Positions 28,087 to 31,987 of a stretch of DNA of 64,000 nucleotides are shown here, in pieces. Position 1 is the stretch's first letter, and each line of letters starts with the position of its first letter. The translations under genes were made by a program, and so were the position numbers. Origin of the DNA: Fulvia fulva (taxonomy: Eukaryota > Ascomycota > Dothideomycetes > Mycosphaerellales > Mycosphaerellaceae); assembly GCF_020509005.1 (NCBI RefSeq), contig NC_063020.1, positions 3,410,001-3,474,000 on the forward strand, read 5' to 3'. Under the pieces are notes generated by a model that worked only from the letters and a program-made list of their open reading frames with translations, was not told where the DNA came from and did not search any database.

Positions 28087-29002
28087 CTAGTTCTTCCCTA
28101 CATAGTCGCGCTTCCATATTTCATCGAACTTCTCCTTATCAACAGCAAACTCTCGAGCGAATTCCCACTCCATTTCGTGCATCTTGGTTCCCACAAGCAC
28201 AAGACTGTGTAAGGGCTTGCCAAGGTCGAATTGCGTTAATTCTTCCAGTGTGCCGGCCACGATCTGCTCACCTTCGCTGCCCAATCGAGCAACACCAATG
28301 GCGAGCTTCTCCTTTGCGGTGATGCCTTGCTGCCTGGTCTCTTCGACTTCGATCATCTGGCTAGCGCATTGAGCCACAGTCATGAAACGAGGTGGCTCGT
28401 ACACAATCTTGCCTCTTGCCAGTGCTTGCAAGTTCGGCTCTTTGACTTTGATGTCGAGCAGCACGAGAGTATGCAGACCCAGACTCGCATTCTCGGCGAC
28501 ACGATCGTAGAAACTGTCCGGCTTCCACGTTTCTGTGAAGAACACCATAGAAACTGTCTGGCCGTAATTGTAAAGACTGAGTCCGGTGGCACCTACCGCG
28601 GTCAGGATCGAGGCGTTAGGCAAAGTCCTTGTAGCGATGTGAGGCTCATGTTGACGACAGCGTAGTGCGAGATCAGTGTGTGTAGTCGCGCTGAACGGGT
28701 CCCCCACGACAAGGAAGGCCACGTCCTTTTCATGAGCACCAGCCAGAATGTCATCGGATTGCGACTCGACCATTTCACGATCAGCGATGATCACGGATCT
28801 GCCATAGTATGCTTCCTACTGGATGTGAACATCAGTCGGGTGCTGTCGATACTAGTGAGTGTCATACCAATTGCTCCTTCTCTACGAGCAAGACAGCTGT
28901 GTAAGCTTCGAGGTAGACACGCTCTGCTCGTTTGACGATTTCAAGACCCTTTGTTGAGATGTCGCGCTCATCAGCGAGGCCCAGGCCGATGATGTACAGC
29001 AT
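28087..29002 (-). CDS. DPH5: Diphthine methyl ester synthase
   Basis: SAM-dependent methyltransferase that tetramethylates the modified His of elongation factor 2 during diphthamide synthesis, in the cytosol. Exon 1 is 29002-28868 and exon 2 is 28815-28087 (52-nt intron; EKEQL joined to [17 protein letters not shown]); about 287 residues, near the usual 285-300. Diagnostic blocks: [16 protein letters not shown] at the N-terminus, [38 protein letters not shown] and [20 protein letters not shown] start at the MLYIIGLGL Met; a Met 20 codons upstream is not family-like. Divergent from SPT3. Confidence 0.96.
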
Positions 29003-29285
29003 CTTGAGGTGAACGTCGCTGATGAACGCCAGCACACGAATGGCATAGAAAATTGCTCGCATGTTCGACCCCTGTCACTTCACTTTAGCGATCTGACGCG
29101 CCGGCCCGCCATCTCCGCAACTCTATACGCGCCTAGCACCACTTCCACTCGCGACAACGCGGCGACAGGTACCCGCACCTCGACAACATCATCTCGAATC
29201 TCTACCGAACCAGATCACCCAGCTTTCGGCTAGACGACACGAGCCTCCATATCAGTCATAGCGCGAGCATCATCCGCCGCCTGCG
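29003..29285. promoter_or_regulatory. Bidirectional DPH5/SPT3 promoter
   Basis: Only 283 bp separate the two divergent start codons. No TATA box is seen; the sequence is CG-rich with CACTTC/GCGACA-like words, as in housekeeping promoters. Confidence 0.5.
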
Positions 29286-31987
29286 ATGGCCGACAACAAG
29301 AATGCAAAGTACCGGACGGAGATCCAACAGGTTCGTACGCATCTCCTTCTGTCGCATGTTCCGTTTCGCGATATGTGTGGCGGGTCACCCGTGATGACCA
29401 GCTTGCCATTCTTATTCAGCTGGTGCGGGCAAGCTACTACTAAGAAGAATCTCCCGGCGTTGATATGGTAGCTACCACCGGAGCACTGGATCCGCACTTG
29501 CGATATTGTCCTCAAAAGTCTTCCTGCCTTCATGCGGACCTCTGGAACTTCATAACTACGATCTTGGATCTCACTTCTGTATCTCTGCCCATCAAGAACA
29601 AGAAGGGCATCCCTACGACAAAATCCAGTGTCATTCTGAAGGCCGCTTCACAACTCAAGACTATCACCATCAATATGGCTTCTAATTTCTCATCCGATGC
29701 TTGGAAGGACCCTGCTGCCTCGAAGCATGAGGCTCCTCCAGATATCTCCAAGGGGGAGACCTCTAAGCTTGATGGCCAGCACCTGTATCAGACATGGGCT
29801 GGGCCACCTGCCATGTCGAAGCCTAGAATATTCGAAGCGCAGCCTGAGCAGAGCAATCCTGTCCCCTATACTCCGGACGTCGATCGACCAGCCGAATTGC
29901 ATAGACAAATCGATACAGGCATGAGTGGAACCACTGTCAACACTGAGAGCAGCTTCAAGGACGCACAAGAGGCCTTGATTTCTCGGACACGGGATGGTGC
30001 TAGAGGTATCACTGGGTCTCAGAGAAACCAAGACAGAGTCGAGAAGGGTGGTAAGCCTAGAGGTCGTCCACCAAAGACGCAAGATCAAAAAGATGCCAAG
30101 CACGCAAAGGCGCCCCAAGATCGGCCACGCCAGAGGAAGAACAAGGCTGGGCCTGCGGACCCGCCTGAGCCAAATCCAAAGAGGAATTGTGAACCTAAAT
30201 CGCAGAAGCCTGCCAAAGCGAGCAAGGATCTTGATGATGGCTCTGGAAATGGTAGGAATGACTCGTGGTTCAAGAACTTCAATGCCCGCGTGAAAAAAGG
30301 ACCGAATGCATTCCAGCCAGGGCAGGGCGGTTCGCTCACGGCAAGATTAGCAGCAGCAGGCGCACTCGACTGGTCACCGTCCGAGCTACACAGATCGACT
30401 GCATGCCATTGCAAGACTTCAAAAGCCGGAGATCGAATCCTCGATCACACCTGCTATCTGCATGCGCCTAATGGAGTTCCCCTCAATGGAAAGTGGGCCC
30501 CGGGCTATTCCTTACAGGCTGGCGTGGAACCACGCCCGGGTGCGCTTCGAGAACTTCTCGGCGATGGCAGACCTGTCGCGGATCGCATCGACAGCGCATT
30601 GTACGCTGATGTCTCGAATGACAAGGGTTCAAATGAAAGTACAGCCGACACTAGCGACTCAAAAGATGAATCTGCCGAGCAAACCGCGGCCGATTCTGGC
30701 TACGAGGCCGAGTCATCGCCTGAGCATTCTTCGTCGACGGCTGAGCCATCGTCAGATGCGACCGCACCAGACTTCGACTGCGTGGAGAGTGAGAAGTAGG
30801 AATCTCCACCAGAGCGCCGTCGAACACGCTCGACAACTGACTTGTGAGAAGTTTCCGCTAGGCGGCGATGCCACCCCCCCCCCCCCGCCATGCAAATGAT
30901 TGGATTGCTAAGAGGATCTTGATGAGCAGTACATCGGTGTTGCAGGATTTCGAGAGATAACCTGCAGTACTGAGATCATGACATCCCTCCAGCGATTTGC
31001 GACGCCTTCTACTACATTCTCACTAGATGCCCATGCTGACGTCGGTTGACATAGATGATGTTCGTGTCCGGAGAGACCGGCGATGTATCACCTGAAACGA
31101 CAAGCATGATTGAGAGCATAGTACAACAGCAAGTCATGGAGATGCTCAAGCGCGCCACAGAACTCGCAGCTCGTCGAGGCGTACGAACAATCAGCACAGA
31201 CGATCTCATCTTCCTCATCCGACACGACAAAGCGAAAGTATCACGATTACGAACATTCTTATCATGGAAAGACGTCCGCAAGAGTGCCAAGGACAGCGAC
31301 GACAAAGGCGCAGGTGGTGGCGATGCAGGAGGCGTGGACGACTTCGATCTTGCAGCAAACGATCCGACTCTAGGCACAGGTCCAAGCGTCGGCACACGAA
31401 ATAGCAAGAACAAGAAAGCCAAAGTCGGCCTCCCTTGGGACGTGTCCAGCTTCTACAGCGAGCAGGTCCCTGAGCGTGAAGACGAAGAAGATGAAGAGGA
31501 AGAAGAAATGAACGCCGCTACCCTGCAACGCCTCAAGCAAGCCGACGAGCGCACCAAAGGCATGAACGCAGAAGAATATCTACATTTCTCCGAATGTCGG
31601 CAAGCATCGTTTACATTCCGAAAGGGTAAACGCTTTCGAGAATGGGCTGGCTTTGGTGTAGTCACAGATTCAAAGCCCAACGATGACATTGTCGATATCT
31701 TGGGCTTCCTAACATATGAGATTGTCACATTACTCACTGAGGAGGCGCTGAAGGTCAAGGCTGCGGAGGATGCGTTAAAGAGGGAGAGCGGTGGAGACGA
31801 GGAGAAGCGAGGACGGAAGAGGAGACGAGAGCCTGGACTGTTTGACCCACCTGAAGAGGCGAGGAGTCCGGTGGGCCCGAAGCATATACAAGAGGCGTTT
31901 CGACGGTTGCAGAAGCCGGATTTGAAGGCGAAGTATATGCATCATATTCCGAAGGGTGGTTGGCAGAGGCCGTTGAAGCTGATATGA
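29286..31987 (+). CDS. SPT3: SPT3, SAGA-complex histone-fold subunit, with 1.7-kb first intron
   Basis: SAGA subunit that helps deliver TBP to promoters; nuclear. Exon 1 is 29286-29330 ([15 protein letters not shown]) and exon 2 is 31055-31987 ([20 protein letters not shown] onward), joined in phase 0; about 325 residues. The joined N-terminus matches the conserved SPT3 start. The histone fold includes [20 protein letters not shown], then [16 protein letters not shown] and FLSWKDVRK. The C-terminal half has [12 protein letters not shown] and [14 protein letters not shown], ending [14 protein letters not shown]. The intron has a GTTCGT donor and CATAG acceptor, is about 1,724 nt, and contains a separate same-strand ORF (29675-30799). 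Without exon 1 the protein could start at MMFVSG, so transcript data should confirm the join. Confidence 0.92.
29675..30799 (+). CDS. Hypothetical AT-hook-containing protein nested in SPT3 intron
   Basis: An uninterrupted 374-residue ORF from ATG 29675. It lies wholly inside the first SPT3 intron on the same strand. Sequence: N-terminal third polar, then an AT-hook-like basic motif [12 protein letters not shown] at about residue 130, a Lys/Pro/Arg-rich linker, a compact central part ([32 protein letters not shown]) with a possible metal motif [20 protein letters not shown], and a Ser/Glu/Asp-rich C-terminus. The frame is also open 70 codons upstream, so the start could be earlier. No family recognised. 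Likely nuclear by composition. If real, it needs its own promoter inside the intron. Confidence 0.65.
   Translation: MASNFSSDAWKDPAASKHEAPPDISKGETSKLDGQHLYQTWAGPPAMSKPRIFEAQPEQSNPVPYTPDVDRPAELHRQIDTGMSGTTVNTESSFKDAQEALISRTRDGARGITGSQRNQDRVEKGGKPRGRPPKTQDQKDAKHAKAPQDRPRQRKNKAGPADPPEPNPKRNCEPKSQKPAKASKDLDDGSGNGRNDSWFKNFNARVKKGPNAFQPGQGGSLTARLAAAGALDWSPSELHRSTACHCKTSKAGDRILDHTCYLHAPNGVPLNGKWAPGYSLQAGVEPRPGALRELLGDGRPVADRIDSALYADVSNDKGSNESTADTSDSKDESAEQTAADSGYEAESSPEHSSSTAEPSSDATAPDFDCVESEK

Follow-up and report, generated by a model that had tools for sequence, protein, structure and literature searches.

How does an uninterrupted reading frame come to lie inside the first intron of SPT3 in the tomato-leaf fungus Fulvia fulva (C. 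fulvum), and is it a gene? The locus lies in a 64,000-nt stretch of contig NC_063020.1, hereafter the window, and SPT3 intron 1 is about 20 times longer there than the mean intron of the species. The Race 5 assembly of C. fulvum (67.17 Mb, 14 chromosomes, 14,690 genes) is described with a mean intron of 80 bp (PMC9453070), which fits the 45 to 115 nt noted earlier for neighboring introns. A gene nested on the same strand as its host would raise two mechanistic problems, namely how a spliceosome used to introns of ~80 nt would remove 1.7 kb, and how the inner transcript would end without cutting the outer one. The problems bear on more than one gene: because SPT3, a gene-activation protein, is a core SAGA subunit, control of its isoforms or dosage through the first intron could have broad effects on transcription. 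The explanation we find best, and hold to be somewhat probable, is that an orphan gene is nested in SPT3 intron 1, an intron that has been long since ancient times (Table 1).

Table 1. Features of the SPT3 locus, in positions of the window
Feature	Position	Strand	Basis
SPT3 exon 1	29286..29330	+	Conserved KYRxEIQQ N-terminus; pattern unique in the window and the genome; lifts the Pfam score
SPT3 intron 1 (predicted; 1,724 nt, phase 0)	29331..31054	+	GTTCGT donor, CTGAC, ACATAG acceptor
Branch-like CTGAC	31036..31040	+	Its A lies 15 nt from the SPT3 intron 1 acceptor
SPT3 exon 2 (310 aa)	31055..31987	+	TFIID-18kDa, 88 bits; 1,946 relatives at E <= 0.001
Stop-free run of 451 codons	29444..30799	+	ORF list; an ATG at 29465 would yield 444 aa; database copy P0001 has 444 aa
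Putative nested orphan ORF of 374 aa with an AT-hook-like stretch	29675..30799	+	Codon content and period-3 asymmetry above null; no relatives found in the protein search

The outer gene can be considered first. Its first exon comprises 15 codons, from an ATG to a final CAG, and its second opens with ATGATG and runs to a stop codon, the intron between them being of the GT-AG type. The initial annotation had set these exons 1,724 nt apart and joined them in phase, and a rereading of the coordinates confirmed both points, the phase being 0. The triplet in frame immediately ahead of exon 2 is TAG, so that exon 2 has no unspliced upstream extension. Joining the exons raised the Pfam TFIID-18kDa score by 13.9 bits, to 101.9 (cut-off, 27), with coverage of profile positions 2 to 92 of 93. 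The joined protein matched the yeast SPT3 chain 6t9i_C at 4.5e-87 (query residues 7 to 313) and another solved chain, 6tb4_D, at 2.1e-86 (query residues 7 to 317). With a histone-fold domain that includes its N-terminal part and with similarity over nearly the full length, the outer gene is predicted from its sequence to be SPT3, the SAGA subunit.

The N-terminus recreated by the junction is, as had been claimed, the conserved one. Among the 120 relatives listed, of the 1,946 found, 39 carry KYRxE[IL]xQ/MM (the slash marks the junction), and the nearest relatives listed are Dothideomycetes of the genera Oleoguttula, Hortaea, Friedmanniomyces, and Cercospora. A degenerate back-translation of KYRTEIQQ matched the window once at up to two mismatches, with no match in 100 shuffles, and matched the whole genome once at up to one mismatch; a Hortaea SPT3 protein used as a query likewise found one locus in the C. 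fulvum genome. The weak element of the gene model is its donor. The usual fungal donor consensus is GTRNGT, which GTTCGT matches poorly, and the site scored 4.57 with our own crude matrix. Next to SPT3, head-to-head and on the opposite strand, lies a TP_methylase gene that we take to be DPH5, separated from it by 223 nt, or by 283 nt if the other of two methylase ATGs is used; downstream lies a PRP1_N/TPR splicing-factor gene, presumably PRP6.

The enclosed ORF was the second element of the initial annotation, which described an uninterrupted 374-codon frame with an AT-hook motif. The frame stands, sitting wholly inside the intron on the same strand as SPT3 and within the longer stop-free run, whereas the motif holds only as an AT-hook-like stretch (residues 126 to 137), its 14.7 bits falling short of the Pfam gathering score of 17.4. 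Given how often stops occur in the window, the chance of 451 open codons in succession is ~5e-7 per start. The period-3 asymmetry of the ORF, 0.0153, is about 2.5-fold the maximum reached in 1,000 simulations (0.0062). Its full codon content is +0.092 bits per codon against a base-composition null of −0.121 (standard deviation, 0.031; z 6.9), the top value of the six frames, and in leave-one-out scoring 23 of 53 long training ORFs fall below it, the training ORFs being long stop-free frames from the window and 20 other 10-kb regions and not verified genes. The choice among synonymous codons is at background (z 0.39); by this measure only 3 of the 53 training ORFs score lower, and the ORF frame is itself outscored by three of the remaining five. 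The ORF is thus coding-like yet without the codon preference that genes typically show, which is expected of an orphan, of a weakly expressed gene, or of a non-gene. The start context at 29675 is good (A at −3, G at +4), and a single-sequence AlphaFold model of the product is poor, with a mean pLDDT of 45 and a pTM of 0.19. A run of 13 C residues occupies positions 30874 to 30886, between the ORF stop and SPT3 exon 2.

Searches for relatives of the ORF returned only the ORF itself, both for the whole protein at E <= 10 among 5.8 billion proteins (the 7,998 candidates sharing the most words were scored) and for residues 195 to 320 (1,440 candidates), in a search that sees only relatives sharing exact 5-residue words. 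The database used is rich in fungal proteins, as the SPT3 search shows. Its own copy of the ORF, P0001, is intact, starts at the ATG at 29465, and is recorded on three contigs. A long intron holding a fortuitous or decaying frame, from which no protein is made, would account for the lack of relatives found, for the background level of synonymous codon choice, and for the poor structure model. The length of the stop-free run, the z of 6.9 for codon content, and a period-3 asymmetry far beyond its null speak against such a chance or relic frame, which we regard as unlikely, though to be taken seriously.

A different possibility is that the ORF forms the 5' portion of another SPT3 isoform, joined to exon 2 by splicing, and it is one that the gene models of other fungi bring to mind. 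When the 120 relatives listed were sorted by N-terminus, 48 had another N-terminus before MMFVSG and 10 started at MM, while the remaining 23 missed the pattern MM[FYH][VI][SC]G[ED], some of them being truncated or starting at MFVSG. Two gene models, P0067 (Phylliscum) and P0117 (Villophora), have exon 1 and then a further stretch, as would suit an alternative first exon, and in Hortaea werneckii P0005 exon 1 is followed by an apparent read-through of the donor and then by a long stretch ahead of MMFVSG. In three H. werneckii models (P0003, P0004, and P0005), a stretch of ~72 residues ending in LICK lies ahead of MMFVSG and varies among them in a protein-like manner (I/M, L/M, and L/F). The solved SPT3 chain of PDB 9ynu_C (433 residues) differs at its N-terminus, over roughly 136 to 140 residues; it skips ~20 histone-fold residues, and the gene model is possibly faulty. 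The annotated N-terminus also differs between close relatives, such as P0102 and P0114, from two Gallowayella species, or P0016 (Oleoguttula sp.) and P0017 (Rachicladosporium sp.), as is expected if each has both sequences.

These other N-termini are not without pattern. The 16 residues next to the junction, compared across 33 non-redundant cases that are 20 residues or longer, tend to E[TS]x3[WYF]x2[RE]L[TI]x2[IL]x[QK]; of the seven positions, all were matched by five cases, six by four, five by five, four by four, and three or fewer by 15. Among those that match six or seven positions are Cryomyces (Dothideomycetes), Paecilomyces (Eurotiomycetes), Candelina (Candelariomycetes), Phylliscum (Lichinomycetes), Geoglossum (Geoglossomycetes), and Sclerophora (Coniocybomycetes). 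Villophora (Lecanoromycetes) matches four positions, and the cases nearest C. fulvum are off-motif, Hortaea and Friedmanniomyces matching two and Oleoguttula sp. P0016 none. An aromatic residue stands at −11 in 17 of the 33 (shuffle mean, 2.7; maximum, 10), a signal that the shuffles overstate because this and the other scored positions were picked post hoc and the sequences are akin. With a leave-one-out motif profile, 16 of the 33 passed the 99.9th percentile set by 7,944 windows taken from these proteins, and 8 had negative scores. The hydrophobic residues of the motif at −3 and −7 share their register with the I and Y of canonical KYRTEIQQ.

Part of this pattern may have been produced by gene callers. 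The sequence LTExIxQ/MM could arise if the end of intron 1 were read through, CTRAC being translated as Leu-Thr and the acceptor as Gln (CAG) or Lys, an explanation that suits those positions well. In 35 non-redundant stretches, LT was found at the expected place in 13 (shuffle mean, 2.1; no shuffle of 5,000 had as many), the pair from the other frame, [SPTA][ND], in 9 (shuffle mean, 5.9; 545 of the 5,000 reached it), and any of LT, [SPTA][ND], or L[TI] in 28 (shuffle mean, 8.9; maximum, 18); 25 of the stretches end in Q and 9 in K. Taken as the sole cause, annotation artifact leaves unexplained the residues upstream of the branch site, among them the aromatic at −11. There are hints of an old alternative first exon in SPT3 intron 1, which would give another first histone-fold helix, and read-through or a conserved noncoding element could also lie behind these N-termini. 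Our literature search found no paper on an alternative first exon of SPT3 in fungi and, at the level of titles, nothing on SPT3 isoforms or on a gene in an SPT3 intron; the words "nested" and "SPT3" are absent from the main text of PMC11694984.

In the C. fulvum intron, no recognizable copy of such an exon was found. The best profile score for the alternative N-terminus motif at any GT of the intron is −7.1, but several relatives with another N-terminus are also without the motif. Among phase-0 donors that could link the ORF frame to exon 2, none but a weak GTGAAA at 30290 exceeds a score of 1; a better donor lies close to the ORF end, at 30789, in phase 1. The ORF was aligned locally with 46 of the other SPT3 N-termini, with 300 shuffles for each alignment. 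None of the shuffles reached the score of P0083, which was set aside as a homologue since the alignment places its N-terminal 19 residues on ORF residues 83 to 101, away from the junction. P0082 (reached by 2.3% of shuffles) and P0016, P0084, and P0089 (3.7% each) were rejected given the 46 tests. The ORF end has in common with P0016 five residues, DFDCV, which in P0016 stand just before the junction, a match that would favor a shared exon but that, at 3.7% of shuffles in one of 46 comparisons, is a lead only. A fused product of exon 1 and the ORF was likewise rejected; in-frame acceptors are present, with no support for their use. We therefore judge it very unlikely that the ORF is a first exon of SPT3.

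The wider pattern is a lead in its own right, as many SPT3 models of filamentous ascomycetes carry coding-like sequence at intron 1, part of it with a motif that crosses classes. One could picture an ancient, promoter-bearing intron 1 in Pezizomycotina with a conserved alternative SPT3 first exon, providing a different histone-fold helix and an acidic extension, that was lost to SPT3 in C. fulvum and replaced there by a free-standing orphan gene. We think this history decidedly unlikely in its entirety. If this history were true, the intron would have gone from isoform switch to gene nursery in C. fulvum.

A third possibility is insertion, in which an SPT3 intron that had been short received a gene or a mobile fragment. 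An intron ~20 times the species mean would fit, as would an ORF without relatives found, which is what a gene transferred from an unsampled source might look like. In the genome searched (67,169,167 bases in 14 contigs), however, the ORF and SPT3 intron 1 are single-copy. A repeat search of positions 29200 to 31100 found no terminal repeats at the intron ends; a 21-nt direct pair and a weak inverted pair were its only products, both lying elsewhere. These two results mean that an origin from a mobile element is not supported. Pfam identified no known mobile-element domain, and no match to the ORF was found in viral contigs, where SPT3 exon 2 gave 69 pattern-matching stretches and none that was confirmed; Rfam gave no match over positions 29000 to 31200.

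Insertion as the source of the intron's length is weakened further by Aspergillus nidulans, in which the first intron of sptC, the SPT3 orthologue, is given as 460 bp, was called unusual, and was confirmed against A. fumigatus (PMC3484666). By that account, C. fulvum is not alone in having a long first intron in SPT3. We consider insertion into a short intron highly improbable; insertion of the ORF into an intron that was already long is a separate matter and could still have occurred. The initial annotation had left open whether the gene was nested in the intron or inserted into SPT3, and of these, nesting is the better supported, insertion as the cause of the long intron finding no support in the 460-bp A. 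nidulans intron, the single copy, or the intron ends. Least credible of all is that SPT3 starts at MMFVSG on a separate transcript, with the exon at 29286 unused and the ORF and SPT3 mere neighbors, which the 10 of 120 relatives listed that are modeled from MM and the weak GTTCGT donor would suit but which leaves a conserved exon 1, in exact phase, unique in the genome, worth 13.9 Pfam bits, and matched by the N-termini of 39 of the 120 relatives listed, without a role.

We return, then, to the proposed orphan gene and its anciently long host intron. Its coding side is argued for by the 451-codon run, the codon content, the period-3 signal, the start context, and the intact copy P0001 on three contigs; its host side is argued for by the intact splice signals and frame of SPT3, the unique exon 1, the long sptC intron, and the coding-like sequence in Hortaea and other models. 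Against it count the synonymous codons at background, an AT-hook below cut-off, the pLDDT of 45, the weak SPT3 donor, and the failure to find a homologue. The arrangement would work as follows. SPT3 transcripts would start upstream of exon 1, in the gap shared with the divergent methylase gene, and SPT3 would be made by splicing out the 1.7-kb first intron in full, as its signals and phase suggest. This intron would descend from an old long first intron of filamentous ascomycetes. The same intron would host a single-exon gene on the same strand, encoding an orphan protein of 374 or 444 aa that carries an AT-hook-like stretch, is probably nuclear and largely disordered, and arose de novo or diverged very fast. 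The ORF would be transcribed from its own promoter inside the intron, and its transcript would have to end before SPT3 exon 2. Since the unspliced frame of exon 1 meets a stop ending at 29471, a transcript that retained the outer intron would make no SPT3, and the efficiency of splicing would thereby control SPT3. Public RNA-seq of C. fulvum includes SRR16292146 (PMC9453070) and an infection time course (PMC11694984). The published pipelines are described as allowing introns of up to 2,000 to 3,000 nt, so a junction spanning 1,724 nt would not have been discarded for its length.

Set beside known systems, the locus resembles several without coinciding with any. A. nidulans sptC is an orthologous gene whose first intron is also reported as unusually long, but that intron is ~3.7 times shorter than that of C. 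fulvum, and the account of it in PMC3484666, as far as it concerns the intron, mentions no nested ORF. The other SPT3 N-termini in ascomycete gene models likewise place coding-like sequence directly upstream of exon 2, but there it continues in frame into SPT3, and some of these N-termini share a helix-like motif, whereas the C. fulvum ORF has its own stop and no such motif at a donor. Protein-coding genes nested in introns are described in animals (PMC3488318), and nested genes on the opposite strand are known and considered rare (PMC4363200). The C. fulvum case shares with these a complete ORF inside the intron of another gene and differs from them in being a predicted gene, on the same strand as its host, in a fungus with a mean intron of 80 bp. 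The arrangement of SPT3 and its enclosed ORF is thus unusual but of a known kind.
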